Source of the DNA: Gemmatimonadota bacterium
GTDB lineage: Bacteria > Gemmatimonadota > Gemmatimonadetes > Gemmatimonadales > Gemmatimonadaceae
Direction of reading: 5' to 3'
Length of the DNA: 64,000 bases
Assembly (NCBI GenBank): GCA_016871855.1
Contig: VHBQ01000003.1
Span: 28,484-92,483 of the forward strand
Shown here: in pieces, positions 38,677 through 56,957 of the stretch
Numbering within the stretch: the stretch's first letter is position 1
Layout: every line of letters starts with the position of its first letter
The notes under the pieces: generated by a model
What the model saw: only the letters and a program-made list of their open reading frames with translations
Databases searched by the model: none
Told to the model about the DNA's origin: nothing
Translations under genes and position numbers: made by a program

Positions 38677-38679
38677 GCG

Positions 38680-39930
<1,251 letters not shown>

Positions 39931-39933
39931 CGG

Positions 39934-41124
39934 CTACTCCCGCACCGCCCGGCGGACGGCGACGAAGCTGGCGGCGAGCAGCACCGCGCCCGTCCAGTAC
40001 GGCGCCGTGTACGCTACGTGATCGAAAACGGCGCCGGCGTACGCCGGGCCGAGGATCGCCGTCAGGCTCGTGATCGCGCCATTGGCGCCGAAGAACATCC
40101 CTTGCTCTTCAGCGGATCCGGCGCTCGAGACAAGGCTCTGAATGGTGGGCGTGGCCAGCCCCGAGCCGAACGCCAGCACGCAGATGGCGGGGGAGAGCAT
40201 CCACCCCGCGGGGACAGCGGCCACCGATGCCATCCCGACCACCATGATGGCCAGTCCGGTCAGCAGCAGTTGCCGGTCCGAATAGCGCGTGGTCAGGCGG
40301 CGGATCAGAAACCCCTGCACGAAGGTCGCCGTGGCGCCGAGCACCGAGAAGACGACGGCATTCTGCGCCGGCGAGTACTTGAACCGGTCAAGGGTGTAGA
40401 CGGCGAAGTTGGTCTGCAGCCCCATCATCGCGAAGCGCGTGAGGAAGATGCTCGCGAACAGGGCCTTCAGGCGCGGCGTCTGCAGGGCCCGCGCCAGCAG
40501 GCCAAAGGGGTTGAAGTCGCCCAGGTGCACCGGATGCGGGCGGCGCCGCTCGGGCGCGAGCGACTCCGGGAGCACGAACCAGCCGAAGACCGCCGTAGTC
40601 AGCGCCACGCCCCCGGCCACCCACGCCGGGGCGTTCAGGCTGATCTTTGCCAGCGCGCCGCCGACGGACGGGCCCACAATGAAGCCGATGCCGAAGGCCG
40701 CTCCAACGAGGCCGAAGTTCTTGGCCCGGTCCTCGGGCCCGGAGACGTCCGCGATGTACGCCTGCGCCGCCGTCAGGCTGCCGCCGGTGAAGCCGGCGAC
40801 GATGCGCGACACGAAGAACATCCAGAGCGCGCCGCCGACGCCGAAGAGCGCATAGCCCAGCGCGGCGCCAAACATGCTGATGACGAGCACGGGACGCCGC
40901 CCGTGGCGGTCGGAGACGGCGCCGAGGAGCGGCGACGCGAAGAACTGCGCGACGGAGAACGCCACCGACAGCATGCCGATGGTCAGCGCGTCGGCGCTGT
41001 ACGGGCGCACGATATAGGGGACGACCGGCATCATCACCCCCGCCCCCATCACGTCCAAGAGGATCGTGATGAAGATGAACGTCAGCGCGCGTCGGCTGGT
41101 CGGGGGAGCGGCGGGGGTGCCCAT
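39934..41124 (-). CDS. MFS transporter, TetA-like
   Basis: A 396-residue exporter with about 12 membrane segments. The N-terminal ALTFIFITILLDVMGAG and the loop GAVSDRHGRRPVLVISM (motif A) fit the TetA/DHA1 drug-export group. It probably uses the proton gradient to pump a small molecule. It is set between permease pairs 1 and 2, three bases before B1, so it is part of the same transcript. The substrate is unknown. Confidence 0.9.
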   Translation of the reverse strand: MGTPAAPPTSRRALTFIFITILLDVMGAGVMMPVVPYIVRPYSADALTIGMLSVAFSVAQFFASPLLGAVSDRHGRRPVLVISMFGAALGYALFGVGGALWMFFVSRIVAGFTGGSLTAAQAYIADVSGPEDRAKNFGLVGAAFGIGFIVGPSVGGALAKISLNAPAWVAGGVALTTAVFGWFVLPESLAPERRRPHPVHLGDFNPFGLLARALQTPRLKALFASIFLTRFAMMGLQTNFAVYTLDRFKYSPAQNAVVFSVLGATATFVQGFLIRRLTTRYSDRQLLLTGLAIMVVGMASVAAVPAGWMLSPAICVLAFGSGLATPTIQSLVSSAGSAEEQGMFFGANGAITSLTAILGPAYAGAVFDHVAYTAPYWTGAVLLAASFVAVRRAVRE

Positions 41125-41196
41125 CCTTACAAACTATCGAGGGGCGTACCGAACGACACTGGTTCACGGTCGGCCCGGTGGCTCCCCGGTTCGATC

Positions 41197-41227
41197 AACC
41201 GTCCACCGTCGACTGTCCACCGTCTAC
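41197..41227. repeat. Heptamer array at the end of permease A2
   Basis: Four imperfect units (ACCGTCC, ACCGTCG, ACTGTCC, ACCGTCT) lie in the gap between A2 and the MFS gene and reach the A2 stop codon at 41224. Confidence 0.78.
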
Positions 41228-42489
41228 TCGTACCTCAGCGCCTCCACCGGATCCAGCTTCGCCGCCCGCATCGCCGGGAGCATCCCAAACCCGATGCCCG
41301 TGAGAATCGCCACCACGAGCGCCGCGACGACGCTGGCGAACGGCACCTCGGCGGGAATGGACGGGAAGTTCGCCTTGATGACCGCGGCCACCGCGGCGCC
41401 GATAACGAGGCCGAAGCCCGCCCCCAGGCTCGTCAGCGTGGACGCCTCCACCAGGAACTGCCACAGGATCGTCCCACGCGTCGCGCCGAGTGCCTTGCGC
41501 ACGCCAATCTCCCGCGTGCGCTCCGTCACCGAGATCATCATGATGGCCACCACGCCGACGCCGCCGACCAGGAGTCCCACGGCCGACAGCGCCAGACCCA
41601 CGACGAAGATCGCGCCGAACAGCTGGTTGAACACCTCGAGCATCCGCTCCATGCCGACGAGGTGGAAGTTGTTCGGCTGCGTGGGGTGCAGGCCGCGGCG
41701 CGCGCGCATCGTGGCGGTGACGGCGTCCATCGCCTCCTCGCGCGTCACCTCGGGACGTGGGCGCACCATGATCAGCATGCTGCGCCAGACCGGCATGCGC
41801 CGCCACGCCGTCATCATCGGCACCACGGCGCGCGGGCGGTCCGGGCCGCGTCCGTCCATGGCCTTCAGGAAGCCGGCCTTCGTCTGGTACACGCCGATCA
41901 CGGTCATCTGCAGCGGGCCCACCATGATCTGCTTCCCGATGGGGTCGCTGTCGCCGAAGAGCTGGCTCTTCAGCGAGTCGTTGATCACGATGACCGGCGC
42001 AGCCGCGTCGTGCTCGGATTCCGAGAACGACCGTCCCGGCGACACATCGGCGATGTCGGTCTTGATCCAGTCGGCGCTCTGCGCGTCGAAGCCGACGTTC
42101 CGCACCGTCCGGTTGCGGTACGTCATGTCGCCTTGGCCGAACATCCACGCCATCGCGGTCCCGACTTCGGGGAGGCGGCGCAACGCCTCCCAGTCTGCGA
42201 TCGTGATGCGGGGGTTGCGGCGGTCGGGGCAGTTCTCGTCGGTGCCGTCGCAGCCGCTCATGCCCACGCCGCGGCGGCGAACCTGGAACGTGTTGGCGCC
42301 GAACTCCTCGAGGTCCGACTGGAAGCTCTGGCGGACGCCGTGGATGGTCGCCCCCATCGCCACCACCACGAACACGCCGACCGCCACGCCGGAGATGGTC
42401 AGCGTGGCGCGCACCTTGTTCGCGCGGATCGCGTCAAAGGCGATCCCGACGCCCTCGAACGACATCTTGACCTGGTCCCAGAGCCGCAT
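41224..42489 (-). CDS. MacB/FtsX-type ABC permease A2
   Basis: A 421-residue type A permease. It has AIRANKVRATLTISGVAVG at the first membrane segment, the coupling segment TERTREIGVRKALGATRGTI and the end DPVEALRYE. The periplasmic domain contains GMSGCDGTDENC, a short loop with two cysteines that probably pair. A 99-base gap with a heptamer array separates it from the MFS gene. It pairs with B2. Confidence 0.9.
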   Translation of the reverse strand: MRLWDQVKMSFEGVGIAFDAIRANKVRATLTISGVAVGVFVVVAMGATIHGVRQSFQSDLEEFGANTFQVRRRGVGMSGCDGTDENCPDRRNPRITIADWEALRRLPEVGTAMAWMFGQGDMTYRNRTVRNVGFDAQSADWIKTDIADVSPGRSFSESEHDAAAPVIVINDSLKSQLFGDSDPIGKQIMVGPLQMTVIGVYQTKAGFLKAMDGRGPDRPRAVVPMMTAWRRMPVWRSMLIMVRPRPEVTREEAMDAVTATMRARRGLHPTQPNNFHLVGMERMLEVFNQLFGAIFVVGLALSAVGLLVGGVGVVAIMMISVTERTREIGVRKALGATRGTILWQFLVEASTLTSLGAGFGLVIGAAVAAVIKANFPSIPAEVPFASVVAALVVAILTGIGFGMLPAMRAAKLDPVEALRYE

Positions 42490-42516
42490 GTTAGTCCGAC
42501 CTCGCGGTGCAGTGAT

Positions 42517-42541
42517 CAGGGAGCAGAGTGTGGTGCAGGGG
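42517..42541. repeat. 25-base dispersed repeat, copy 2
   Basis: CAGGGAGCAGAGTG followed by TGGTGCAGGGG; the first copy is at 34435-34459. It lies in the short gap between permeases A2 and B2. Confidence 0.8.
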
Positions 42542-42550
42542 CATCGGGGG

Positions 42551-43789
42551 TCACTCCTGCCTCAGGGCGGCGATGGGGTCGAGCCGGGCGGCGCGGCTTG
42601 CCGGATAGACGCCGGCGACGATGCCGACGCCCGCCCCCAACCCGAGCGCCGCGAAGACCGACCAGAGCGCCACCGCCGCGGGCAGCGGCGTCGTCGCCTG
42701 CACAAGCTCGGCGAGTCCAATCCCGCCGCCGATGCCGATGGCCGCGCCGATCACCGAGAGCGTCGCCGCCTCGATGAGGAACTGCGAGAGGATGTTGCCG
42801 CGCGTCGCGCCGAGCGCCTTCCGGATGCCGATCTCGCGCGTCCGCTCGGCGACCGCCACGAGCATGATGTTCATGATCACCAGCGCGCCGACGATGAGGC
42901 CGATGGCCGGCAGCGCCGTGCCGAAGACGACCATCTTGGACTTCAGCCCGCGGAAGAACTCCATCGCCGAGTCCTGCGTCTCAAGCGCGAAGTTGTCGGC
43001 CTTGCCCGGCGGCAGGTGGCGCACGCTGCGCATCGCTTCGCGCGCCGCTTCGATCCCTTCCGCCACCAGCTCCAGCGACGGGGCCTGAATGAGCAGCGTC
43101 TCGGGATCGCCCCGCGGCCGCAGTGCGCGATAGAGCGGGGTGGTCCACGGCGCGACGGCCAGCCGGTCCATCGAGAAGCCGAAAACGGTGCCCTGCTCCT
43201 CGATGAGGCCGATGATCTCGTACGGGGTCCCCGCCACGCGCAGCTCGCGTCCGATCGGGTCGAGTCCGGGGAAGAAGTGCGCCGCGACCTCGGTGCCGAT
43301 CACCAGGACGCGGGCGCTGGCCTGCACCTCTTGCTGGGTGAAGGCGCGCCCCGACGTGATGCCGAACTTCTTGATGAGGAAGTAGTCCGCTTCGGTGGCA
43401 ACGGCCTGCACCTGGCGCGGGCGCCCCTGCCCGCCGATGGCATAGAGGAAGTTCTCGTTGACAACGGCGGCGCGCGCGCCCGGCGGAATCGTCCCGCGCA
43501 CCAGTTCCACCTCGGCTTCGGTCAGCCGCGGGCGGCGCATGTACTCCCGCCACTGGTCCTCGCTCTCATTCGGCGTGAACTCCGGGCGACGGCGCAGGTT
43601 GTACGTGTTCACGCCGATGATCTTGCCGGCGAAGTCGTTCTCCACGTACTGGGACATCCCCTCGACGATGGAGATGACGGCGATGAGGAACATCACGCCA
43701 ATCATCACGCCCAGAAGCGTGAAGAAACTCTTCAGCTTCTGGACCCGAATCGTGTCGAGGGCCAGGCGGACGGCTTCGAGGAGAGGCAC
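42551..43789 (-). CDS. MacB/FtsX-type ABC permease B2
   Basis: A 412-residue type B permease with VQKLKSFFTLLGVMIGVMF, AERTREIGIRKALGATRGNI and the end DPIAALRQE. Its sequence is close to B3 (45213), especially KIIGVN and the first membrane segment. A single ATPase upstream in the cluster is its only plausible energy source. It pairs with A2. Confidence 0.9.
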   Translation of the reverse strand: MPLLEAVRLALDTIRVQKLKSFFTLLGVMIGVMFLIAVISIVEGMSQYVENDFAGKIIGVNTYNLRRRPEFTPNESEDQWREYMRRPRLTEAEVELVRGTIPPGARAAVVNENFLYAIGGQGRPRQVQAVATEADYFLIKKFGITSGRAFTQQEVQASARVLVIGTEVAAHFFPGLDPIGRELRVAGTPYEIIGLIEEQGTVFGFSMDRLAVAPWTTPLYRALRPRGDPETLLIQAPSLELVAEGIEAAREAMRSVRHLPPGKADNFALETQDSAMEFFRGLKSKMVVFGTALPAIGLIVGALVIMNIMLVAVAERTREIGIRKALGATRGNILSQFLIEAATLSVIGAAIGIGGGIGLAELVQATTPLPAAVALWSVFAALGLGAGVGIVAGVYPASRAARLDPIAALRQE

Positions 43790-43826
43790 GGGGACCTTAC
43801 GGGGGGAGATCGGTGGGGGTTTCGGA

Positions 43827-43853
43827 GTGACGGTGGACGGTGGACAGTGGACG
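43827..43853. repeat. Heptamer array between permeases A3 and B2, left
   Basis: Three to four units (GACGGTG, GACGGTG, GACAGTG, GAC) on the + strand. With the array at 43899 it forms an inverted pair that flanks about 45 bases. Confidence 0.82.
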
Positions 43854-43885
43854 ATCGATCTCAGGAAGGGTCCGCCGCAAATGCG

Positions 43886-43899
43886 TCAGGCGCGCCTGA
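43886..43899. promoter_or_regulatory. 14-bp perfect palindrome between two heptamer arrays
   Basis: TCAGGCGCGCCTGA is fully self-complementary and sits between inverted arrays upstream of B2. It could be an operator or the tip of a larger hairpin. Confidence 0.35.
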
Positions 43900-43935
43900 T
43901 CCACCGTCCACCGTCCGCCGTCCACCGTCACTGTC
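43899..43935. repeat. Heptamer array between permeases A3 and B2, right
   Basis: Four to five units (ACCGTCC, ACCGTCC, GCCGTCC, ACCGTCA) in the orientation opposite to the array at 43827. It lies just past the A3 stop. Confidence 0.85.
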
Positions 43936-43949
43936 CCCACGCCAATCCC

Positions 43950-45206
43950 TCACTCGTATCTCAGCGCATCCACCGGATCGAGCCGCGCCGCGCGAGCCGC
44001 CGGGAGCATCCCGAACAGCACGCCGGTCACCGCGCTCGCGCCCAGCGCGGCCACCACGGCCAGCGGCGGCACCGAGGCGGCAATGGGGCTGTACTCGCGC
44101 ACGATCACCGCCACGCCCCAGCCAATGAACAGCCCGACGGCGCCGCCAATGCCGGTGAGCGTCACGGCCTCGATCAGGAACTGCAGCAGGATGTTCGCCC
44201 GCGTCGCCCCCAGCGCCTTCCGCACGCCGATCTCGCGGGTCCGCTCGGTGACCGAGATCATCATGATGGCCACCACACCCACGCCGCCCACGATCAGCCC
44301 CACCGCCGACAACGCGATCATCACCAGGAAGAACATCCCGAAGATCTTGTTGTAGGTGTCCATGATCTTGTCTTGCGTGATGATCGCGAAGTTCGACTCG
44401 CGGCCCGGACGCAGCCCCCGCATCCCGCGCAGGGTAGCGGTTACGTCGTCGACCAGCTCGTCGGGGCGGTAGCCGACCCGCGGTTTCACGGCGAGCCCCA
44501 TGTCGCGGATCTGCACGTTCAAGTGGCGGCCAAGCGATTGAATGGGCATCACGACCTTCGCGCGGTCGCCGCCGCCGGAGAGAAACGAAGCGTTGTCGCG
44601 GTACACGCCGATCACCGTGAACGGCGTGCCGTTCACCATGATCTCCTTGCCGATCGGATCGCTGTCGCCGAAGAGACGATCGCGGGTGACGGTCGTGAGC
44701 ACCACGACGCGAGCCGCGCTCCGGGCCTCCTGGTCGGTGAACGCGCGCCCGTCCATCATCTCCGGCGCGCCGAGCTCGGACCAATTCCCCGTGTAGGACT
44801 CGATGGATGCCGAGGGCAGGTACCGGTCGCGGTAACGCACCGACCCGCCCCAGAACATCGCGGCGCCCACGGTCGCCGCCCCGTCGAGTCGTTGCAGCGC
44901 CTCCATCTCGGCGAACCGGATGGGTGGGTTGGACAGCCACTTGCAGGTGTCCCCCGTGCCGTCGCACGCCTCGAACGTGATCGGGTAGCGCTGGACGTAG
45001 AACGTGGTCGGCCCCGTGGACTCGAGGTCCTTCGCGACGCTGAGGTTGATGCCGTGCACGGCGGCCGAGATGACCACCACGACGAAAACGCCGACCGCGA
45101 TGCCCAGGATGGTCAGGCCGGCCCGAACGCGATTGGCCTTCAGTGCGTCGAGGGCGATTCGCATCCCCTCGAGGATCTGTGAGGCGCGCGCAGCGATCCA
45201 AGTCAT
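43950..45206 (-). CDS. MacB/FtsX-type ABC permease A3
   Basis: A 418-residue type A permease: ALKANRVRAGLTILGIAVG at the first membrane segment, TERTREIGVRKALGATRANI and the end DPVDALRYE. The periplasmic domain carries FEACDGTGDTCKW, a cysteine loop matching that of A2. It starts six bases after the B3 stop, so A3 and B3 are tightly linked. Confidence 0.9.
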   Translation of the reverse strand: MTWIAARASQILEGMRIALDALKANRVRAGLTILGIAVGVFVVVVISAAVHGINLSVAKDLESTGPTTFYVQRYPITFEACDGTGDTCKWLSNPPIRFAEMEALQRLDGAATVGAAMFWGGSVRYRDRYLPSASIESYTGNWSELGAPEMMDGRAFTDQEARSAARVVVLTTVTRDRLFGDSDPIGKEIMVNGTPFTVIGVYRDNASFLSGGGDRAKVVMPIQSLGRHLNVQIRDMGLAVKPRVGYRPDELVDDVTATLRGMRGLRPGRESNFAIITQDKIMDTYNKIFGMFFLVMIALSAVGLIVGGVGVVAIMMISVTERTREIGVRKALGATRANILLQFLIEAVTLTGIGGAVGLFIGWGVAVIVREYSPIAASVPPLAVVAALGASAVTGVLFGMLPAARAARLDPVDALRYE

Positions 45207-45212
45207 GGGCGG

Positions 45213-46460
45213 CTACTCCTGGCGCAGGGCTGCAATGGGGTCGAGCAGGGAGGCGCGGCTGGCCGGATAGACGCCGCTGATGATCCCCACGCCCGCGCCA
45301 AGGCCGACGCCGACCACCACCGACCAAGGCGCGACGCTGGCCGGGAGCGGGGTCAGCGCGGCGATGACCTCGGCCATCCCCACGCCCAGCGCGATCCCGA
45401 CGGCGGCGCCGACGGTGCTGAGCGTGGCCGATTCGACCAGGAACTGGCTCAGGATGTCCACGCGGCGCGCGCCCAGCGCCTTCCGGATGCCGATTTCGCG
45501 GGTGCGCTCGGCCACCGCCACCAGCATGATGTTCATGATCACGATCGCGCCGACGACCAGCCCGATGGCGGGCAACGCGATGCCGGCCAGCACGAGGTAG
45601 CGCTTGAGCTTGTTCCAGAATTCGAGCGCGCTCTCAGACGTCTGCAGCGAGAAGTTGTCCGGCTGGCCGGGGCGGAGCTTGTGCCTTGTGCGCATCACCT
45701 GCCGCACGCGCTCCTGCGCCTCGGTCATCTGCGACGCCGAGGGCACCTGCACGATGATCGCGTCGACGATGGTCGGCACGCGGTTGAGGAGGCGATGGAC
45801 CGGCGCCTGCCACGGGGCAAAGACCTGGTTGTCGAAGGAGAGGCCGAACGCGCTTCCCTGTGTTTCGAGCACGCCGACGACGGTGTAGGGGAGGCCGCCC
45901 ATGCGCAGCTCGCGGCCGATCGGGTTCAGCCCCGGGAAGAGGCGCTTCTCGATGTCCGGGCCGATGATGACCACCGGCGTCCCCATCTCCAGTTCCTGCG
46001 GGGTGAACTCGCGCCCCTCGGCAACGACGAACTTCCGGATGGCGAAGAAGTCGCCTTCGATGGCGCTGATCTGGGCGTTGCGCGGTCCGCCGGAATAGCG
46101 CGAGGAGACGGGGAGGTTGTTGTCGCTGACCACCGCCCAGCGCGTGTCGGCGGGGAGCGCCTCGACCACCGGGGCCACGTCATCGTGGTACAGGCGCGGC
46201 CGGCGACGGTACGACTCCCAGACCGAAGGATCCACGTCGCCCATGTTGATGTTCGGGCGGTGGCGCAGCTCGAACGAATTCACTCCGATCAACTTGCCGA
46301 TCAGATCCTGCTCCATGTACCGCCCCATCCCCTCGACAATGGAGACCACGGCGATAAGGAACATGACGCCGATGCAGACGCCGAGAAGCGTGAAGAAGCT
46401 CTTGAGCTTCTGGGCGCGAATGGTGTTCAGCGCGAGGCGGATGGACTCGAAGAAAAGCAT
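45213..46460 (-). CDS. MacB/FtsX-type ABC permease B3
   Basis: A 415-residue type B permease and the first permease of the cluster. It has AQKLKSFFTLLGVCIGVMF, AERTREIGIRKALGARRVDI and the end DPIAALRQE. The ATG at 46460 gives MLFFESIRLALNTI, in line with the start of B2; a longer in-frame reading to 46613 would run through a repeat and is rejected. A 211-base gap with a hairpin separates it from the ATPase gene. Confidence 0.9.
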   Translation of the reverse strand: MLFFESIRLALNTIRAQKLKSFFTLLGVCIGVMFLIAVVSIVEGMGRYMEQDLIGKLIGVNSFELRHRPNINMGDVDPSVWESYRRRPRLYHDDVAPVVEALPADTRWAVVSDNNLPVSSRYSGGPRNAQISAIEGDFFAIRKFVVAEGREFTPQELEMGTPVVIIGPDIEKRLFPGLNPIGRELRMGGLPYTVVGVLETQGSAFGLSFDNQVFAPWQAPVHRLLNRVPTIVDAIIVQVPSASQMTEAQERVRQVMRTRHKLRPGQPDNFSLQTSESALEFWNKLKRYLVLAGIALPAIGLVVGAIVIMNIMLVAVAERTREIGIRKALGARRVDILSQFLVESATLSTVGAAVGIALGVGMAEVIAALTPLPASVAPWSVVVGVGLGAGVGIISGVYPASRASLLDPIAALRQE

Positions 46461-46500
46461 ACAGTCCTTACGGTAGGCGCCGGGGGGGAGTTTCTGGGGC

Positions 46501-46674
46501 GATCGAGGACTTGGACCGAGGATTTCGATAGAGGACCACGACCAAGGAACGGGATTGGCGATTGGTGCGGCCCGGGCAAGCAAAGCGGCCCCGTCGGGGG
46601 GCCGCTCTGCCATCGAAAGTCGGAATCCGAAGTCGACGTCCTCGATCGGAATCCGGGCTCCACGTCCTCAATCA
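46501..46674. repeat. Imperfect inverted repeat between ATPase and permease B3
   Basis: GATCGAGGAC-like blocks at the left (46501-46543) are repeated in reverse complement at the right, where two copies of a GGATTCCGA-GAGGACGT block end in the ATPase stop codon. About 33 of the outer 43 positions agree. A GC hairpin lies near the middle. It fills most of the gap. Confidence 0.65.
46585..46605 (-). terminator. Hairpin after the ATPase gene
   Basis: GCGGCCCC pairs with GGGGCCGC around a short loop, with one extra G. Read on the - strand it is followed by TTTGCTT. It may partly end transcription after tolC-macA-ATPase so that the permeases are expressed less. Confidence 0.55.
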
Positions 46675-47490
46675 GCCCTTCTTCGCCTCGATGATATGCG
46701 AGTTGTCGTTGACAAACCGCTCGCGGCGCGTGTCGCTCGAGACCTGGCCGTCGTGCAGCGCCACGACGCGACGGGCGTGCGCGGCGATGTCGGCCTCGTG
46801 CGTCACCATGATGACCGTCTGCCCCTGCTCGGCGAGCTCCTCGAACACCTTCATGATCTCGGACGACGTCGTCGAGTCGAGGTTGCCGGTGGGTTCGTCG
46901 GCGAGGAGGATGGACGGGTTGTTCACCAGCGCCCGCGCGATGGCCACGCGCTGGCGCTGGCCGCCGGACAGCTCATTCGGCTTGTGGTGCATGCGGCTGG
47001 TCAGCTGCACGCGCTCAAGCGCGTACGCCGCCGTCTCGCGGCGCTGCTTGGCCGACATGCCGGCGTACACGAGCGGCAGTTCGACGTTGTGCAGCGCCGT
47101 CGCGCGCGGCAGGAGGTTGAACGTCTGGAAGACGAAGCCGATCTCCTTGTTCCGGATGCGCGCCAGTTCGTCGTCCTTCATGGACGAGACCAGCGTGCCG
47201 TTCAGCCAGTACTCGCCGTCGGTGGGCGTGTCGAGGCAGCCGACGATGTTCATCAGCGTCGACTTGCCGGAGCCTGACGGGCCCATGATGGCCACGTACT
47301 CGTTGCGCCGGATGGCGACGTCCACGCCGCGCAGGGCGCGGACGATTTCGCCGCCCATATCGTACTCGCGCTTGATGCCGCGCGTCACGATGACCCAGTC
47401 GCGGCTGGGGGTCACCCCGGCCTGCGAGGTGACCGCCTGACGTTCCGCCGTGGTGCTGAGCGGCGCTTCTGCGTGCGTGGTGTCGCTCAC
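46672..47490 (-). CDS. ABC transporter ATPase, MacB/LolD type
   Basis: A 272-residue nucleotide-binding subunit. Walker A is GPSGSGKST at residues 70-78, the Q-loop [11 protein letters not shown], signature [15 protein letters not shown] and Walker [14 protein letters not shown] are all intact, with the switch histidine in MVTHEAD. It has an N-terminal extension of about 35 residues. It is the only ABC ATPase in a cluster of six permeases. It overlaps the adaptor gene by four bases. Confidence 0.95.
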
Positions 47491-48761
47491 GACTTCTTCT
47501 CCCCGGGCTTCTGCTCCGACTGCTTGGCTTCGCGCACGATGGTGCCGTCCTTGAGTTCGCGGATGGCCTGGTAAGTGCCCCCCACGATGCGCTCCCCGTC
47601 CTTCACGCCGGAGAGGACCTCGAAGTACTTCTCGCCGGCGATCCCTACCTTAACGGGCCGGAAGGTCACTTTGTTGGTCCCGTCCACCACGAAGACTCCT
47701 TCCACGTCCTTCTTGCCAACCTGCTTCACCGGCGCCTTGGCGTTCGGGACGGAGTCGGTGCTCTTGAGCTCCTCGTTCTCCCGGACCGTCAGCGCGATGA
47801 TCGGGATCGCCATCACCTGCGTGCGGGTGTCGGTGATGACCTTCGCGGTCGCCGAGAAGTCCTGGCGGGTGTCGGTGGGCGGATTGATGAGGCGGATCTT
47901 CACCTCGTAGTCGATGGCCTGATCGCCGGTCGCGGTCGTCGCGCCGCGCACGGAGCTCTGCGAGATCTCGGCCACCCGCCCGATGAAGGTCGTGTCCGGG
48001 AACGCGTCGATCTGCACCACGGCCGAGTCCCCCAGCGAGATGCGCGACACGTCGGTCTCGTCCACCTTCACCTTGGTCTCCAGCACGCTCATGTCGGCGA
48101 TGGTCATCAGCGTCGCCGCGTCCTTGTTGAACGTCCCCTGCACGGCCGTTTCGCCGTTCTCGACGTTGAGCCGCGTGACGCGCCCCGACATCGGGGCATA
48201 GATGTTCGTGCGCGAGAGCTGCCACCGCGCGTCCTTGAGCGAGGCCTCGGCCTGCTTCACCGATTCCTGCGCGGCCTCGAAGAGGGCCTGATTGACTTCG
48301 ACGGTGGTGCGCAGCTGCTCCAGCTGTTCGTCGGAGATGAGCGTCGGGTTGGTCTTCTTGATCTCCGCGGAGCGCTCGTACGTCCGGGTGTTCTGGGTCA
48401 GGTTGGCCCGCGCCTGCGCGAGCCCCGCGCGCGCGTTGGCCAGCGCCGCCTCAGCGCGCTGCACCTGGCTCTCGAACTGCTGCGGGTCGATCTGCAGCAG
48501 CAGCTGCCCCTTGGTCACCATATCGCCCATCTTGACGTTCAGGGCGACGATCTTGCCGGTGATGTCGGCGGACAGGTCCACCTTGGTGCGCGGCGTAACC
48601 TGCCCGCTGGCCGTGACCGAGGCCACGAGATCGCGCTTCTGCACGGCCTCGATGCGGACTTCGGTGCCCTTCTTCTTGGCCTTCTGCATCTGCAGGAAGC
48701 CGAGGCCGCCTACGGCGACGACGCCGACGCCGATGAGAATCCACTTGGTACGCTTGGTCAT
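47487..48761 (-). CDS. MacA-like periplasmic adaptor (HlyD/RND family)
   Basis: A 424-residue membrane-fusion protein. An N-terminal anchor ([17 protein letters not shown]) is followed by a lipoyl half ([20 protein letters not shown]), a long helical hairpin (about 95-180), the second lipoyl half ([18 protein letters not shown]), and beta-barrel and membrane-proximal domains. It should link the permeases to the TolC-like channel. It starts 12 bases after the TolC-like gene. Confidence 0.93.
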
Positions 48762-48773
48762 GGTCTGTCTCTC

Positions 48774-50240
48774 TTAGCGGAGGGGACGGCCCACCGCGTT
48801 CTCGAGCGCGGCCCAGGCACGGTGATAGTCGTAGATGGCGGCGATCCGGTCGGTGGAGGCGCGCTCGTAGTCATTGCGGGCCTGCACCAGCTCGACGAAC
48901 GAGCTGACACCCACGCGGTAGCGCGCCTGCGCCAGCGTGAGGGCTTCCTGCGCGGCCGCCGCGTTCTGCTCCTGCAGGCCGACCGTGCGATAGGCCGCCT
49001 GCAGCGAAGTCCAGGTGGCCGTCACGTCGGCGGCGAGCTGGAGCTCCTGCCGCCGCACGTCGTAGCGCGCGTTGTCACGCGCGATCTGCGCTTCCTGCAG
49101 TCGCTGCTCGCGCCCGAACTTGTCGAACAGCGGGAGCGAGACGGTCAGCGCCAAGTTGTACGGGCTCGATGTGAAGTCGAACGGGAACGTCTTGTTGGCG
49201 TCGCGCACTGCCTGCGCCGCCGCCGGGGTCCAGGTCATCGCGTTGCACTTGGCGCCGATCGAGCTCAGCCCGGCGCCACGCCGAAGGGAATCGGTGGTGA
49301 AGCAGCTCGCCTGGCTCGACAGCATCTGGCCCTGCGCCTGCGCCACCAGGAAGTCGGCGTTCTTGTACTGCGTGGTGTAGCCGCCGAGCTGCGCGCCCAG
49401 CGACACCGTCGGCGTGTACGCGCCCCGCGCCGACTGCACGAGGTGCGCGGCCGCCGTCTGGCGCGACTGGAAGCCCTGCAGCGTGGGGTTGCTCTTGCGC
49501 GCGATGTCGAGCAGCTGGTTCAGCTCAAACGACGGCGACGTGACGGTGGTCAGCGGCACGAGTTCAACCGGGCCGGGGCGCGCCACGCCCAACTGCTGGA
49601 ACAGCTTGAGCTGGTCCACCTCGGCGGTGTTGCGCGCGCGGAGCGCGATCACCTGCTGCTGGCCGATGGCCACTTCGGCGCGCTTCACGTCGAGTGAGGT
49701 GCCCGACCCGACCTCCACCCGCGCCTTGGCGAGATCGAGATCCAGCCGCACCTTGGTCAGGAGCGAGTCCTGCAGCGCCGCGTTGGCCTGGCTCTGCAGC
49801 GCGGAGAGGAACTGCGTCACGACCCCGGCGCGGAGCCCGACTTCGGCGGCGGCGACATCGGCCTCTGCCGCGTCCACGTTGGCGCGGGCGCGCCGCAGCT
49901 CCGTGACGGTGGAGGCCGACATCCGCGCGTTGAAGTTGAGTCCCCAGTTGCTCGAGATGATGTCCGAGGTCGCACCGAAGGCCACGCCGCCGAAGAACTC
50001 CTGCTTGCCCTGGCGATAGCCCGTCCCGAAGGACGCGTCAGCCCCCGGCATGAAGGCACCGTACGCCGAGCGGAGTGCCAGCGTCGCGCGCGTTCGGCCG
50101 CTCAGCTGCTGCTGGTAGACCGGGTTGTTCTTCTTGGCGATGCCGATGGCGTCGTCGAGGGTCAGCGTCGCGGGCGCCGCCTGCGCGGCGGCCGAGGCGG
50201 CGACTCCGGAGACGACCAGGGCGGTCAGTAGATTTCGCAT
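48774..50240 (-). CDS. TolC family outer membrane channel
   Basis: A 488-residue protein with a signal peptide (RNLLTALVVSGVAASAAAQA) and two repeated halves of outer-membrane efflux type, including LTLDDAIGIAKKNNP at the start of the first and ALTLAQARYRVGVSSFVELVQ in the second. A loop in the second half holds two cysteines (SQASCF and GAKCNA). It is the first gene of the cluster and completes a tripartite exporter with the adaptor and the permeases. The ATG at 50240 is preferred to an in-frame start at 50255. Confidence 0.92.
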   Translation of the reverse strand: MRNLLTALVVSGVAASAAAQAAPATLTLDDAIGIAKKNNPVYQQQLSGRTRATLALRSAYGAFMPGADASFGTGYRQGKQEFFGGVAFGATSDIISSNWGLNFNARMSASTVTELRRARANVDAAEADVAAAEVGLRAGVVTQFLSALQSQANAALQDSLLTKVRLDLDLAKARVEVGSGTSLDVKRAEVAIGQQQVIALRARNTAEVDQLKLFQQLGVARPGPVELVPLTTVTSPSFELNQLLDIARKSNPTLQGFQSRQTAAAHLVQSARGAYTPTVSLGAQLGGYTTQYKNADFLVAQAQGQMLSSQASCFTTDSLRRGAGLSSIGAKCNAMTWTPAAAQAVRDANKTFPFDFTSSPYNLALTVSLPLFDKFGREQRLQEAQIARDNARYDVRRQELQLAADVTATWTSLQAAYRTVGLQEQNAAAAQEALTLAQARYRVGVSSFVELVQARNDYERASTDRIAAIYDYHRAWAALENAVGRPLR

Positions 50241-50271
50241 GTCCGAGGCATCCAATCGTTAGGTCCGAGGC
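50241..50271. promoter_or_regulatory. Direct repeats before the tolC-like gene, possible operator
   Basis: GTCCGAGGC occurs at 50241-50249 and again at 50263-50271, 22 bases apart, about two helical turns. The first copy touches the start codon and the second touches the candidate -10. A regulator bound here could block transcription of the export cluster. Confidence 0.4.
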
Positions 50272-50373: not shown

Positions 50374-51069
50374 CTACCGCGCGACCGTCCGCGGCGCCTC
50401 ATCCCGGACCGCGACGAGGGCGTCCGATACCATCGCGACCTTCAGAACCCGTCCCTCGCGATCCACCCAGACTTGCCGCTCCGTCCCACTCGCATCCTCG
50501 CGGACGGCATACCGGCGCGCTTCGATTGCCACCAGGGCGATCGAGACGCGATCCTCGCCCAGGTCCTCCACGGTAAGGCCCACCACCAGCCCGCGGCTTG
50601 GCACCACCGCCATCACCCGACCTGGGCCTCGGGCGACCACGAACTGGAGAGGGTGCAGCACGCCGTCATCGACGATCAACGCGTCCGGTGGGAGCATCAG
50701 TTCCCGTGCCGACTCGCCGACCTGCCGGCGGGCCCGCGCGCTGTAGCGACGGCCGGTGATCTCCGCGCGGTAGCTCTCGCCGGCCCGGCCATCGTCCGTG
50801 AAGCTGGACTGGAACCGCACGGGCCGGCCGAGCGAATCCGCGTTGAGATCCACGGTGGTCCGGCGCGCGCCAGCGACGACCACGCCGCGCGTCAGCGTCT
50901 CGTAGGCGCCCGGCGTCGTCGGCACGTGGCGAATGGAGAAGTCCTCACGGCCGACCCGGGTGCCCGCGCGGGTGATCGTGAAGCTTCCCTCGTCGACGAC
51001 GGTGACCTGCGCGGGTACCGCGGGGGCCCAGAGGACGAGAAGGGAGAGCGAAAGGAGGGTGTGGCGCAT
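50374..51069 (-). CDS. Secreted protein of unknown function
   Basis: A 231-residue protein with a Sec signal peptide (TLLSLSLLVLWAPAVPAQ). The mature part is beta-rich with repeated patterns such as GSFTITRAGTRVGREDFSI and RVSIALVAIEARRYAV, and ends in VWVDREGRVLKVAM, reminiscent of DUF6134- or DUF3108-like lipid-binding beta sheets, but no family is certain. It is 133 bases upstream of the tolC-like gene on the same strand, and divergent from the histidine kinase gene. Confidence 0.72.
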   Translation of the reverse strand: MRHTLLSLSLLVLWAPAVPAQVTVVDEGSFTITRAGTRVGREDFSIRHVPTTPGAYETLTRGVVVAGARRTTVDLNADSLGRPVRFQSSFTDDGRAGESYRAEITGRRYSARARRQVGESARELMLPPDALIVDDGVLHPLQFVVARGPGRVMAVVPSRGLVVGLTVEDLGEDRVSIALVAIEARRYAVREDASGTERQVWVDREGRVLKVAMVSDALVAVRDEAPRTVAR

Positions 51070-51134: not shown

Positions 51135-51152
51135 CCACAGCGCCCGCTGTGG
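51135..51152. promoter_or_regulatory. 8-bp inverted repeat before the histidine kinase gene
   Basis: CCACAGCG and CGCTGTGG are separated by two bases, in the 99-base gap between divergent genes. It is close to the candidate -10 TATTTT and may be an operator. Confidence 0.35.
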
Positions 51153-51154
51153 GG

Positions 51155-51160
51155 TATTTT
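51155..51160 (+). promoter_or_regulatory. Possible -10 of the histidine kinase gene
   Basis: TATTTT lies eight bases before the GTG at 51169. No Shine-Dalgarno stands between them, so the transcript may be leaderless. No clear -35 is present. Confidence 0.3.
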
Positions 51161-51168
51161 CTCCGCGA

Positions 51169-54100
51169 GTGACAATCCTCGACCCGTCGCCGCCCACGGT
51201 TCGCCGAACCGGGCCCGTCCTGCCCCCGTCGGCGTGGATGCCGTCGGCGGCCGCCATTGTCCTGACGGCGGCCGCGTGGATTCGCACGCAGCAGCCGCTC
51301 TGGCTCTGGCTGTGTGCGTTCGCTTCGCTCGTGGCCATCGCCGCGCTGGGACGTCGCCGCCGCACGGGGCGCGAGACGGTCTTCCTGGCCCTCGCCGTCC
51401 TCTTCATCGCCGACGGCACCTGGACGCGCGCGGAGCGGGTGCGGCGCGAATCGGACTGGCCCACGTGGAGCCGGCAGGCGGCGGCGCGCGGCACGGAGGC
51501 GTTCGCCCGCCGCATCGAGACGACGGCGGCCGACCTGCTGGACGCGGTGCAGCGCGCGGCGTCCGACGGTGTCTCGGGGGCGGAGGCGTGGGATGCGATG
51601 GAACGCGTGGTGCGGTCGCATCCCGAACGGGCGATCCTGCGGAGTCGCGCCGGACAGCCGGAGGTGTGGGCGGGCCGACTGCACGTCCCCGTGGACTCGC
51701 TTCCGGCCACGCACGGCGTGATGGCCACGCCCTTCTATCTGGCGCTCTACGTTGCCGCGACGCGAGGGGAGGTGACGGTCGCGGCCACCGCGGTGCTGCA
51801 CGCCGAGCCTCCGGCGGATGAACTGGTGCCGGCGCTCGACGCACGCGCGTCGCGTCCGGCCGGGATCGCCGGCTTTTCGTTCGCACCGGCCGACGCGCCC
51901 GGTGATTCCCTGCGGCGCGTCGTCGTGAACGGCGATGCGGTCCTCGCGGTGCGAGCGGTCGTCGCCCCGCCTGAGGTGGTGGCGCTGGAGGCGCTGGAGC
52001 GGTCGCGCTGGCGCGGTGGCGTGGCGCTCGCCGCGCTGGCGCTGCTCTTCATTGCGACGGCGTGGCGTCGTGAGCATCACCTGCGCACGCGGCTGGTCGC
52101 GCTGCTCACAGTGACCGCGTCCGTGGCGGTGCTGCCGCTCGGGTCGTTCTCGAACCTCTCGCGCTGGTTTGACGCGGGCCTCTACTTCACACCGACGCTG
52201 GGCCCGCTGAGTGCCAACGTCGCGGCACTGATCACGGTCAGCGCGCTCACGCTAATGGCGCTCTTCGCCGTGCTGCGCCACCGCCCGGGGAGCCAGGCCC
52301 GGTGGGTGTGGGGCGCCGTCCTCGTGGTCGTCGCGTCCGTCACGCCGTTCCTGCTTCGCGACCTGGCGCGCGGCATCCGACTGCCGCTTGACGGCACGCC
52401 GGCATCGCTGTGGCTGGCGTGGGAGGTTTCGATCTTCCTCGCGGCGTTTGCCGTGCTGCTGCTGGGAGTGACCGCGGGGCAGGCGGTGGTGGGCGCGCGG
52501 CGGGGCCTGCCCGGCTGGCCGGCGCCGTTGCTGGCCGGGCTCTCCGCGCTCATGGCGCCGATGCTGCTCGAGGCGCCGGGGCGGCTCCCCGGGTGGTATC
52601 CGGTGCTCTGGATCGCCGCCATCGCGGCGCTCGCGACGGCGCGCCGCGCCCGGCGCGCGCTGCTGCGCACCGCGTTCGTGGCGGCCTGTGGCGCCGTGAC
52701 CCTCGTCTGGTCGGCGTCGGTTCGGCAGCGCGTCCAACTCGCGCAGGCTGACGTGGTCGGGCTGGGCGCCGTGGATCCGGATGCCGCGTCGCTTCTCCAG
52801 CGGTTGGCGTCAGAGCTCGCGCTCGCGGCCGCGCCGACGAACCGCACGGCGCTGCTCGGCCGCTATGCAGCGAGTGAACTGGGGGCCGCCGGGTTCCCGG
52901 CGGAACTGACCGCGTGGGACTCGCTGGGACGGCCCGTGGCCGACCTGCGCGTCGCGATGGCGCCGGGAACGACCGAGGGACTCGCCGATTTCGCCGCCGA
53001 GGCGCGCCGGCTGGCTCGGCCCGTGCTGCGCGAGACCATCCCGGCTCCGCTCGCCCAACTGGTGCTGGCGGTGCCGCATCGCGGCGGCGATGTCACCACG
53101 GTCGTGGTCTCGCCGCGCACGAGACTGGTTCCAGCGGATCCGTTCATCGCGCTCGTGGGTCTCGGCCAGTCGCCCAACGCCGAGCCGCCGTACAGCCTGC
53201 AAGTGGGCGACGCGCGTGAGGTCTCGGCGCGTGCGGCGCGCTGGTCACGTCGCGCGAATGAGTTGCATGGCGACTGGGTGGTCCCCGTGGGCGACGCCGG
53301 GGCCGCGCGTGTGCACGCCCGCGTGGACTTGCGCGGACTCGAGGCGCTGGTACCGCGTGGCGCGCTGCTCGTGATGCTGAATGTGCTGCTCGTCTCGCTG
53401 CTGTGGGGCCTGCTCTTCGCCGCCGAGGGCACCGGCGTTCGCTGGCTGCGGGTGCAGGTGCGCGGCTGGCCGCGCAGCTACCGGTTGCGACTCTCGCTGG
53501 CCCTGTTTGCGTTCTTCGTGCTTCCTGCGGGAGGATTTGCGGCGTGGAGCTACCGCCGCCTGCAGGCGGATGATCGGCAGAGTCGCGACCTCCTCGTGCG
53601 CGAGACCCTGCGCGGCGTAGCGACCTCGTCCGACAGCGTGCAGTTGAGCGAGGCGGCCGCGCGCTTCGACACGCCGCTGCTGCTCTTCGCGGACGGGCTC
53701 CTCATCGGGACCAGCGATCCGCTGATCGATGCGCTCGCGCCTGTGGGCCGGCTCCTTCCCCCGGCTGTGGTGCGCGCGCTCGGCGACAACGATGAACTGC
53801 TCGCCGGAATGGACGAACGCGTCGGGCGCGGCCGTGTGCGGTTCGGCTACCTGACCATCGAGCCAGGTGGCGCGCGGCTCGTGCTCTCGGCGCCGGCGCG
53901 GAGCGACGAGCGGGCGCTCGACCGCCGCCGTCGCGACGTCGCCGTGCTGGTGCTGGTCGTCACGGCGCTGGGCGCGCTCGCCGCGTTCTGGCTCAGCGGC
54001 ATCGCCGCGCGCACGTTTGCGCGCCCCATCGACACCCTGCGGCGCGGTGCGCTTGCCGTGGCGGGGGGCGCGCGCGAACCGTTGCCTGGCGGTCAGCCGC

Positions 54101-55179
54101 CGGTGGAGTTCGAACCGGTCTTCGATGCCTTCCGCCGGATGGCCGCCGACTTGGGGGCGAGCCGTGATGCGCTGGAAGCGGCCGAGCGTCGGCTCGCGGC
54201 GGTGCTGCGCGATGTGGCGAGTGGCGTGGTGGCCGTTGATGCGGAGGGACGCATCACGCTCATCAACCCGCGGGCGGTGGCGCTGCTCCCCGACGGCTCG
54301 CTTCCCGGCGCCACGGCGGATGCGGTGCTCGACGCCCCGCTCGTCGAGCGGCTGCAGCGGTTCCTTGCCGGCGCGGCGGACCAGGAGGAGTTCGACATCG
54401 AGCGCCCAGGCGGCGTGCAACTGCACGTGCGGCTGACGCGGCTCGTGCGCGGCGCGCGCGGCGCCGTGATCACGCTCGATGACCTGAGCGAACTCGCGCG
54501 CGCTCAGCGCGTGCTGGCCTGGGGCGAGATGGCGCGGCAGGTGGCCCACGAGATCAAGAACCCGCTCACACCGATGCGCCTCGGCATGCAGCATCTCAGT
54601 CGTGCCCGGCGTGATCCGCGCGTGGATTTCGATGACGTGCTCGACGAAAACGTCGCGCGCATGCTTGCCGAGATCGACCGGCTGGATGAGATCGCCCGCG
54701 CCTTCAGCCGCTACGGCATGATCCCCGCCGAGCAGGCGCCGCCCGAGCCGGTGGATGTCGCGGCCGTGGTCGCCGACGTGGTGCGGCTGGAGCAGATCGG
54801 CGCCGGTGACGTCGAGTGGCAGCTCAGCGGCGGCGGCTCCGCGCTGATGGCGATGGCGCGCGAGACTGAACTGCGCGAGGTGCTGCTCAACATCCTCGAG
54901 AACGCGCGGCACTCCGGCGCGCGGCAGGTGCGCATTGCGCTCGGCAAGGGCGAGGGGGCGGTGCGCGTGGTGGTGCATGACGACGGGCACGGCATTCCGC
55001 CCAGCGTGCTGCCGAAGATCTTCGAGCCGCACTTCTCGACGCGCACCAGCGGCAGCGGACTCGGGCTCGCCATCAGCCGTCGCTTGATCGAGGGGTGGGG
55101 CGGCACCATCGAGGTCGCCAGCATCCCGAATCAGGGGACGACCGTCACCGTTCGTCTGGTCGGCCGCGGCGCCGCCTGA
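51169..55179 (+). CDS. Giant NtrY-like sensor histidine kinase
   Basis: A 1336-residue membrane kinase. The N-terminal two thirds hold about ten or more hydrophobic segments and two large extracytoplasmic parts, then a membrane segment (DVAVLVLVVTALGALAAFWL), HAMP, a PAS domain (RLAAVLRDVASGVVAVDAEG), the DHp helix with His1127 in VAHEIKNPLTPMRLGMQ and the ATPase domain (LLNILENARHSG, DDGHGIP, GSGLGLAI). The DHp motif is of the NtrY type, but N-terminus and length differ from NtrY. No response regulator is adjacent. The GTG start is chosen because upstream reading crosses the divergent gene; an ATG at 51238 is possible. Confidence 0.85.
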   Translation: MTILDPSPPTVRRTGPVLPPSAWMPSAAAIVLTAAAWIRTQQPLWLWLCAFASLVAIAALGRRRRTGRETVFLALAVLFIADGTWTRAERVRRESDWPTWSRQAAARGTEAFARRIETTAADLLDAVQRAASDGVSGAEAWDAMERVVRSHPERAILRSRAGQPEVWAGRLHVPVDSLPATHGVMATPFYLALYVAATRGEVTVAATAVLHAEPPADELVPALDARASRPAGIAGFSFAPADAPGDSLRRVVVNGDAVLAVRAVVAPPEVVALEALERSRWRGGVALAALALLFIATAWRREHHLRTRLVALLTVTASVAVLPLGSFSNLSRWFDAGLYFTPTLGPLSANVAALITVSALTLMALFAVLRHRPGSQARWVWGAVLVVVASVTPFLLRDLARGIRLPLDGTPASLWLAWEVSIFLAAFAVLLLGVTAGQAVVGARRGLPGWPAPLLAGLSALMAPMLLEAPGRLPGWYPVLWIAAIAALATARRARRALLRTAFVAACGAVTLVWSASVRQRVQLAQADVVGLGAVDPDAASLLQRLASELALAAAPTNRTALLGRYAASELGAAGFPAELTAWDSLGRPVADLRVAMAPGTTEGLADFAAEARRLARPVLRETIPAPLAQLVLAVPHRGGDVTTVVVSPRTRLVPADPFIALVGLGQSPNAEPPYSLQVGDAREVSARAARWSRRANELHGDWVVPVGDAGAARVHARVDLRGLEALVPRGALLVMLNVLLVSLLWGLLFAAEGTGVRWLRVQVRGWPRSYRLRLSLALFAFFVLPAGGFAAWSYRRLQADDRQSRDLLVRETLRGVATSSDSVQLSEAAARFDTPLLLFADGLLIGTSDPLIDALAPVGRLLPPAVVRALGDNDELLAGMDERVGRGRVRFGYLTIEPGGARLVLSAPARSDERALDRRRRDVAVLVLVVTALGALAAFWLSGIAARTFARPIDTLRRGALAVAGGAREPLPGGQPPVEFEPVFDAFRRMAADLGASRDALEAAERRLAAVLRDVASGVVAVDAEGRITLINPRAVALLPDGSLPGATADAVLDAPLVERLQRFLAGAADQEEFDIERPGGVQLHVRLTRLVRGARGAVITLDDLSELARAQRVLAWGEMARQVAHEIKNPLTPMRLGMQHLSRARRDPRVDFDDVLDENVARMLAEIDRLDEIARAFSRYGMIPAEQAPPEPVDVAAVVADVVRLEQIGAGDVEWQLSGGGSALMAMARETELREVLLNILENARHSGARQVRIALGKGEGAVRVVVHDDGHGIPPSVLPKIFEPHFSTRTSGSGLGLAISRRLIEGWGGTIEVASIPNQGTTVTVRLVGRGAA

Positions 55180-55196
55180 CAGATTTACAGATTCCC

Positions 55197-56957
55197 ATGA
55201 GCCCCGCCGTTCCCATCGCGCCGCATACACGCTCCACCGGCATCCCGCCGCACCTCGACCGGTGGGAGCTTCCTCCCGGCTGGCGGTGGGGCGAGGAGGG
55301 CGTCTATACCGCGCACCGGCACGCCATGCAGTTGGTGGACGCGTTCGGGCGCGCGCTCGCTCTGGTGACGGCGCCGGATCCGGCGCACGAGAAGTGGCTG
55401 TTCGCGGAGGCGCGGCAACTCGCGCATCGCAACCACCCAAACATCCCGACCACGTACCACTTCTGGCGGCGGTACCGCGAGAGCCCGCGCGGGCCGGGAT
55501 ACCTGCGGCGCTGGGTGGCGGGCGAAACGGTTGGCGCGCGCCTGCGCCGCATCGGCACCGAGACGGTGCCGTACATGCTGCGCGTCCTGCGCGCCACGGG
55601 CTCGGCGCTCGCCTATCTGCACGACGCCGGCGCTACGCACGGTGCCGTTTCGCCTGACAACATCTACACCACGCCGGCCGGTCGGCTGTATCTGCTCGGC
55701 TGGCAATGGGCCGTTCCCGCGCAAGACGTTCCGGCCGGGCTGCGCCCGGATCCGGCCTTCGTGCCGCTCCCCAATGAACTCCTGACGGGCGCGTGGCGAC
55801 CGACGCCGGCAAGCGATCAGTGGCAGCTGGGGGCGGTCTGCTTCGCCATTCTCACGGGCGAGTTGCCCCCGCGTGATGAGGTGCCGCCGGTTCGCGTTGT
55901 GCGGCCGGAAGTGCCGGCCAGCGTCGCCGAGTTGGTGGATCGCGCCCTTGCCCCGTCGCCGGACGATCGGTTTTTCAATCTGTCCGGCCTGCTGCGCCAG
56001 ATCGAGCGCATCTCCGGCACCGGCACGCCGCTGCTCGTCGGCGTTGACCAGAGCTCAGGCGAATACCGGGCCGTCTCGGAGGAGGACCGCCTGCGCTGGG
56101 CGACGGGCGACGACTACGAAGTGCTCGCGTCGCTCGGCACGGGGCAGTTCGGTTCGGTCTGGCGCGTGCGCGACCTCTCGCTCGAGCGCGAGGTGGCGCT
56201 GAAGATGCTCCACCCGAACATCGCGCGGAACGAGGACGCCGTGGCGCGCTTCCGCCGCGAGGCGCGGCTCGCGGCGCAGCTCAATCATCCGGCAATCGTC
56301 CCGATCTACGCGTGGGACGCCAAGGGCGACGTCTCCTGGTACACGATGGAAGTGCAGGAGGAGGGTTCCGTCGCCGACCTCGTCGCGCGCAACGGCCCGC
56401 GCAGCATCGCCGAGATCGCGCCGCAGGTGGACGCGGTGCTCGACGGGCTTGGGCAGGCGCACACGAACGGGATCATTCACCGCGACATCAAGCCCGAGAA
56501 CATCCTCATCGACCGCTATCGCCGGTGGCGGCTGTCGGACTTCGGCATCGCGAACGCGCTGGGCGACGACCGTGTGGGCGCCTCGGGCACGCCCGCCTTT
56601 GCCGCGCCCGAGCAACTGCTCGGCGAAGCGCAGGGCGTGGCGGCCGATCTCTTCGCGGTGGCCGGGATCGTCGTCTTCGCGCTGACCGGGAAGCTGCCGT
56701 TCGGCGGCGGCGACGCGCGCGCGATTCTCGCGCAGCAGCTCGCCGGCAACGTGGACCTCGAGCAGTTCCCGCCAGAGCTGGCCGACTGGCTGCGCACGGC
56801 GCTGTCGGCCGATCCGGAACAGCGATTCCGCGACGCGGCGTCGATGCAGCGCGAATGGCGCGCGCTCACGCGCGAGCTCGCCCGCCAGGAACGGCATGCG
56901 ACGCGCTGGACGCGCTGGTGGAACGCGACGCGGCGCTTTTTCCTGAAGCCGCGATAG
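55197..56957 (+). CDS. Tandem pseudokinase-Ser/Thr kinase protein
   Basis: A 586-residue protein with two kinase-like domains. The first (about 20-260) has lost the catalytic residues: the Lys position reads LALV, HRD is His148-Gly149-Ala150 (HGAVSPDN) and DFG is LGW. The second (about 300-555) is intact: GTGQFGSV, Lys336 in VALKML, Asp430 in HRDIKPEN, SDFGIANA and TPAFAAPEQ. There is no membrane segment; the C-terminus is Arg/Trp-rich. It starts 17 bases after the histidine kinase stop and probably shares its mRNA. Confidence 0.9.
   Translation: MSPAVPIAPHTRSTGIPPHLDRWELPPGWRWGEEGVYTAHRHAMQLVDAFGRALALVTAPDPAHEKWLFAEARQLAHRNHPNIPTTYHFWRRYRESPRGPGYLRRWVAGETVGARLRRIGTETVPYMLRVLRATGSALAYLHDAGATHGAVSPDNIYTTPAGRLYLLGWQWAVPAQDVPAGLRPDPAFVPLPNELLTGAWRPTPASDQWQLGAVCFAILTGELPPRDEVPPVRVVRPEVPASVAELVDRALAPSPDDRFFNLSGLLRQIERISGTGTPLLVGVDQSSGEYRAVSEEDRLRWATGDDYEVLASLGTGQFGSVWRVRDLSLEREVALKMLHPNIARNEDAVARFRREARLAAQLNHPAIVPIYAWDAKGDVSWYTMEVQEEGSVADLVARNGPRSIAEIAPQVDAVLDGLGQAHTNGIIHRDIKPENILIDRYRRWRLSDFGIANALGDDRVGASGTPAFAAPEQLLGEAQGVAADLFAVAGIVVFALTGKLPFGGGDARAILAQQLAGNVDLEQFPPELADWLRTALSADPEQRFRDAASMQREWRALTRELARQERHATRWTRWWNATRRFFLKPR

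Follow-up and report, generated by a model that had tools for sequence, protein, structure and literature searches.

A conserved multi-membrane sensor region without a domain model on an orphan NtrY-related histidine kinase of Gemmatimonadota

Several described sensor kinases and one superfamily of extracytoplasmic domains are the points of reference for the gene considered here. NtrY of S. meliloti is a protein of 771 aa that adjoins ntrX and scores 136 bits for the NtrY_N domain. Polytopic membrane sensors are found in DesK, AgrC and BtsS/LytS, whose described members have 5–7 helices, and the kinase BceS depends on its ABC transporter (PMC8534201). Extracytoplasmic domains of the Cache type are defined by a long N-terminal helix that directly extends the preceding transmembrane (TM) helix and by a last strand that enters the next one (PMC4822843).

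The window, a stretch of 64,000 nucleotides of Gemmatimonadota DNA analysed as a whole, contains an orphan kinase gene whose product has HATPase_c and HisKA as the only full domains above the Pfam cut-off (Table 1). An earlier note on this DNA had described a hydrophobic N-terminal region of about 800 residues, reaching to position 53600, ahead of the HAMP, PAS and DHp parts of an NtrY-type kinase. Such a long region is indeed present 5' of these parts in the same open frame, but it extends further, over about 944 residues to nt ~54000, and the end noted before (aa 811) falls inside domain C and would cut it. The topology and structure prediction proposed there as a check was carried out by hydropathy and by an AlphaFold model of aa 1-1000 (pLDDT 86.2, pTM 0.83) and returned a polytopic sensor with about 14 TM helices; the membrane segments described were therefore found, while the two extracytoplasmic domains became three. 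The order of the elements is TM1-3, domain A, the TM4-11 core, domain B, TM12-13, domain C and TM14. Three lines of evidence agree on this helix count: mean hydropathy across 28 relatives, the helices of the AlphaFold model, and a positive-inside charge pattern in which the cytoplasmic loops, unlike the outer ones, are rich in K/R. In the predicted topology, the N-terminus and the kinase domain are placed inside and A, B and C face out. We regard this architecture as well supported and would be surprised to see it overturned.

Table 1. Features of the kinase gene, its product and the neighbouring genes, with positions in the window.
Feature	Coordinates	Strand	Basis
Four MacB-type permeases	41224..46613	-	two more at 37417-39930, after MFS gene
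ABC ATPase	46672..47490	-	PF00005
MacA/HlyD-type adaptor	47487..48761	-	Pfam, NCBIfam
TolC-type outer membrane protein	48774..50255	-	PF02321
DUF6134 protein, divergent, apparent signal peptide	50374..51069	-	PF19630; linked in most relatives
-10-like element, TATTTT (TATTAT in most genus relatives), 8 nt 5' of GTG	51155..51160	+	same-genus intergenic alignment
Orphan sensor histidine kinase, 1336 aa	51169..55179	+	single open frame
TM1-TM3 (aa 20-90)	51226..51438	+	AlphaFold helices 20-40, 43-60, 67-95; hydropathy
Extracytoplasmic domain A (aa 91-272), alpha/beta, between TM3 and TM4	51439..51984	+	AlphaFold
Eight-helix membrane core TM4-TM11 (aa 273-517), conserved outer loops	51985..52719	+	hydropathy, AlphaFold, charge
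Extracytoplasmic domain B (aa 518-728), putatively of dCache-like fold, between TM11 and TM12	52720..53352	+	AlphaFold, Foldseek
TM12-TM13 (aa 729-794)	53353..53550	+	hydropathy, AlphaFold
Extracytoplasmic domain C (aa 795-914), element order like that of a single Cache domain	53551..53910	+	AlphaFold
TM14 (aa 926-944)	53944..54000	+	hydropathy, AlphaFold
HAMP (aa 946-995)	54004..54153	+	PF00672 E=0.01, below cut-off; aligns with NtrY HAMP region
Cytoplasmic PAS (aa 1007-1108)	54187..54492	+	PF13188/PF08448 E about 0.005, below cut-off
DHp/HisKA, H-box HEIKNPLTP, phospho-acceptor H1127	54520..54699	+	PF00512 1.2e-6
CA/HATPase_c, N-box NILENA, G1 DDGHGI, G2 GSGLGL	54862..55158	+	PF02518 1.8e-24
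Ser/Thr kinase, downstream neighbour conserved in same taxonomic family only	55197..56957	+	PF00069, synteny

The GTG start is backed by an upstream block conserved in the intergenic alignment of eight same-genus relatives, and the -10-like element so close to it suggests that the kinase message is leaderless. A perfect palindrome with 7-bp arms, CACAGCGCCCGCTGTG (CACAGCG and CGCTGTG around CC, 51138-51153), in the divergent promoter region was considered as an operator and rejected, as it is not conserved in the genus. The sensor is kept, essentially as a single copy, in 57 of 60 close relatives with 24–74% identity across the order, which argues that the long region ahead of HAMP is not a product of chance. 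Within the sensor, conservation peaks in TM13 (3.09 bits of mean information) and is low in TM1-3 and domain A (1.9-2.3 bits), the latter being the least conserved domain, although W167 and G169 are invariant. In TM4-11 the outer loops reach 2.56-2.71 bits against 1.90-2.32 for the cytoplasmic loops, from which we infer that the outer face of this core may be a functional surface at which a ligand or partner acts.

When considering what the sensor resembles, no credible Pfam, NCBIfam or PDB sequence match was obtained for aa 1-914 in 28 family members, nor a credible PDB sequence match with profiles of the whole sensor or of A, B and C separately; all NCBIfam and PDB sequence matches of the kinase fall in residues ~914-1330. 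By structure, a Foldseek search of the PDB with the aa 1-1000 model retrieved Mlp24 and PctB, both amino-acid-binding dCache proteins, and KinD with a probability of about 1. For these matches the lowest E value was 2.6e-3, and TM-scores by target were no higher than 0.29-0.49; the query has several domains, and the output gives no query ranges. A second AlphaFold model of domain A and TM4-11 alone (pLDDT 82, pTM 0.60) kept little of this signal (E 0.33 for Mlp24), giving only weak, mixed matches to roadblock, CusS sensor and PAS/Cache folds, none at E<=0.001; by subtraction between the two models, domain B is thus the most likely source of the dCache match. In the AlphaFold model, helix 497-532 extends TM11 into domain B and strand 711-720 leads into TM12; likewise, helix 771-818 runs on from TM13 into domain C, whose strands (838-909, the last being 904-909) are followed by TM14. 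Both domains thus show the helix extension and last strand of the Cache superfamily, and ligand binding by them is predicted, although neither matched a Pfam Cache family model at E<=1 (24 members each). For the eight-helix core, the Foldseek top 50 held no convincing solved match, in a list dominated by soluble folds, so that this absence is weakly supported. GPCR-like matches of the core (PF10324, 0.069; adrenergic receptors, 0.15) were at chance level, and an internal duplication relating A, B and C was set aside since the profile comparison was unconvincing (3% probability for B versus C). The earlier proposal of a new sensory module holds in that aa 1-914 has no credible sequence match. 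No published description of the module was found in the literature. It is weakened by the dCache-type fold seen by structure and by the same element order in C, as part of the module appears to use the commonest known extracytoplasmic sensor fold. A convincing match is lacking only for the arrangement as a whole and for domain A plus the eight-helix core.

In a sample of 200 Gemmatimonadota genomes, 162 carry the sensor, again essentially in single copy. A scan of genome contigs, with conserved peptides of one family as probes, returned 57 loci, all from Gemmatimonadota or from a few records titled just 'bacterium'. No plasmid-borne relatives of the sensor were found. The sensor architecture is real, well conserved and unannotated. 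Some loci deviate from the usual composition. Five of them (L136, L141, L142, L147 and L150) carry the sensor and a kinase lacking HAMP and PAS, with TM14 leading almost directly into the DHp helix; HAMP and PAS therefore appear dispensable for the pairing of sensor and kinase and would not be essential to the signalling path. In another genome (G076), a long kinase stands at the same place with a sensor diverged beyond detection.

Regarding the gene neighbourhood, 34 of the 35 loci read, from several families, have export genes running divergently from the kinase. In families f1 and f2 (20/20 loci), the kinase is divergent from genes for TolC, HlyD and MacB-type permeases, usually accompanied by one for an ABC ATPase; a DUF6134 gene and a creatininase-like one (so called from a sequence motif) often lie in between. 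In families f4-f6, export genes are kept at that place in 14 of 15 loci. In the window, the permease set is unusually large for the single ABC ATPase gene: region 37417-46613 contains six MacB-type permease genes, and an MFS gene (39934-41124) lies among them. The Ser/Thr kinase lies directly 3' of the histidine kinase in f1 only; in the window it starts 17 nt past the histidine kinase stop and has an apparent second N-terminal kinase-like domain. Response regulators were present in 3 of 36 neighbourhoods, at no conserved position, and none was found on the window's contig (92 kb).

As drug-efflux-type export genes adjoin it, the kinase is probably a conserved envelope sensor. The explanation that we prefer, and give an even chance of being right, is that of an orphan kinase related to NtrY, in which an unnamed polytopic region with about 14 helices would act as the sensor and which probably tunes envelope export. 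The sites receiving ligand or envelope cues would be the two Cache-like domains, B and C, and the conserved outside of TM4-11, and the movement would be relayed via TM12-14 to HAMP, PAS and DHp. H1127 would then be autophosphorylated and phosphorylate an NtrC/NtrX-type regulator encoded elsewhere, with an output that may include tuning of the divergent export cassette. Taken by itself, regulation of the cassette by the kinase is hypothesised at somewhat less than even chances, and in f1 the downstream Ser/Thr kinase could be the functional partner instead. More tentatively, the eight-helix core and domain A might form an undescribed receptor, widespread in Gemmatimonadota, which takes an envelope or export ligand at its outer face and feeds, together with B and C, into one kinase; we consider this possible but doubtful.

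The divergent arrangement spans several families at about 30-38% kinase identity and has outlasted most gene order, and the six sampled genomes without the kinase (G004 and families f7 and f8) also have no close TolC homologue, only distant ones. Both observations speak against the kinase being a global envelope or nutrient sensor that stands beside the cassette by vertical inheritance and acts on unrelated genes via a regulator encoded elsewhere. This alternative nevertheless gains from genus g41 (L179, L181 and L182), where the Ser/Thr kinase, the creatininase-like gene and the cassette remain in order and the histidine kinase alone is missing between the first two, which shows that the cassette can do without the kinase. 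It also accommodates the lack of a regulator consistently linked to the kinase, as well as locus L165, in which the kinase is present and no TolC/MacB cassette was detected within 20 kb. We judge it unlikely, though with a real chance of being correct. The long-term linkage to MacB-type permeases and the conserved outer loops of TM4-11 would likewise suit a Bce-like kinase whose eight-helix core contacts the MacB-type transporters in the membrane, so that the transporters themselves, and not a free ligand, are sensed, with the transporter dependence of BceS as a precedent (PMC8534201). This is improbable in our view: three sizeable outside domains are out of keeping with BceS-type kinases, and the kinase has been lost in g41 while the transporters stayed, with L165 suggesting the reverse.

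In the explanation that we prefer, the kinase half supplies the output. The H-box HE[IV]KNPLTP occurs in 88 of the 89 kinase cores of the family, some of them from the same genome; the catalytic core is intact and places the protein in the sensor histidine kinase (HisKA) class. In BLASTP against S. meliloti NtrY, residues 937-1320 align with 29% identity (E=5e-38) and nothing meaningful aligns N-terminal of residue 937. As the earlier note had stated, NtrY is shorter than this kinase. Its label 'NtrY-type' suits the output half, where AQRxxAW..AR..AHEIKNPLTP is common to both proteins, and fails for two other NtrY features: NtrY_N (PF19312) was not found in this genome by a search that was positive in the Caulobacter control, and no ntrX adjoins the kinase. 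Judged from its sequence, the kinase therefore has an NtrY-like output half only. An ordinary nitrogen-regulating NtrY with an enlarged sensor is largely refuted and very improbable, as the identity over HAMP-PAS-DHp-CA is offset by these two absences and by a best NCBIfam score for AtoS, at 182.9 bits against a cut-off of 646. Elsewhere in the genome, an NtrX-like sigma54 regulator (L060 1048-2478, contig C71) is situated beside the in-genome kinase closest to this kinase core (35%) and is a possible cross-partner of the orphan kinase. Another sigma54 activator (L059 811-2478, contig C113) has a receiver-like N-terminus seemingly without the phospho-acceptor aspartate, undetected by Response_reg, and there is no kinase match on its contig.

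A sensor conserved in most sampled members of Gemmatimonadota, a large and mostly uncultured phylum of soil and freshwater, has no domain model and is therefore unnamed in annotation; its natural variants, namely genus g41 without the kinase alone and another group without HAMP and PAS, provide clean comparisons. When compared to NtrY, the TM-HAMP-PAS-DHp-CA half is shared, whereas the sensor is about three times longer here. With the cytoplasmic part, the highest scores in NCBIfam and the PDB are those of kinases of the AtoS/ZraS type (HisKA), but they lie far below the family cut-offs and the sensor is different. The dCache_1 domains of Mlp24, PctB and KinD probably share their fold with a single outside domain, for which B is the best candidate, as well as its helix continuous with the preceding TM, in contrast to which no member matched a Pfam Cache model at E<=1 and the domain lies inside a 14-helix protein, not between two helices. 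DesK, AgrC and BtsS/LytS are polytopic like this sensor with fewer helices, and DesK and AgrC, unlike it, have no outside domains. Finally, as in BceS with BceAB, the kinase gene adjoins an ABC export system, although a sensor domain is absent from BceS, which has two helices, and the protein encoded here has about 14 helices and three extracytoplasmic domains.
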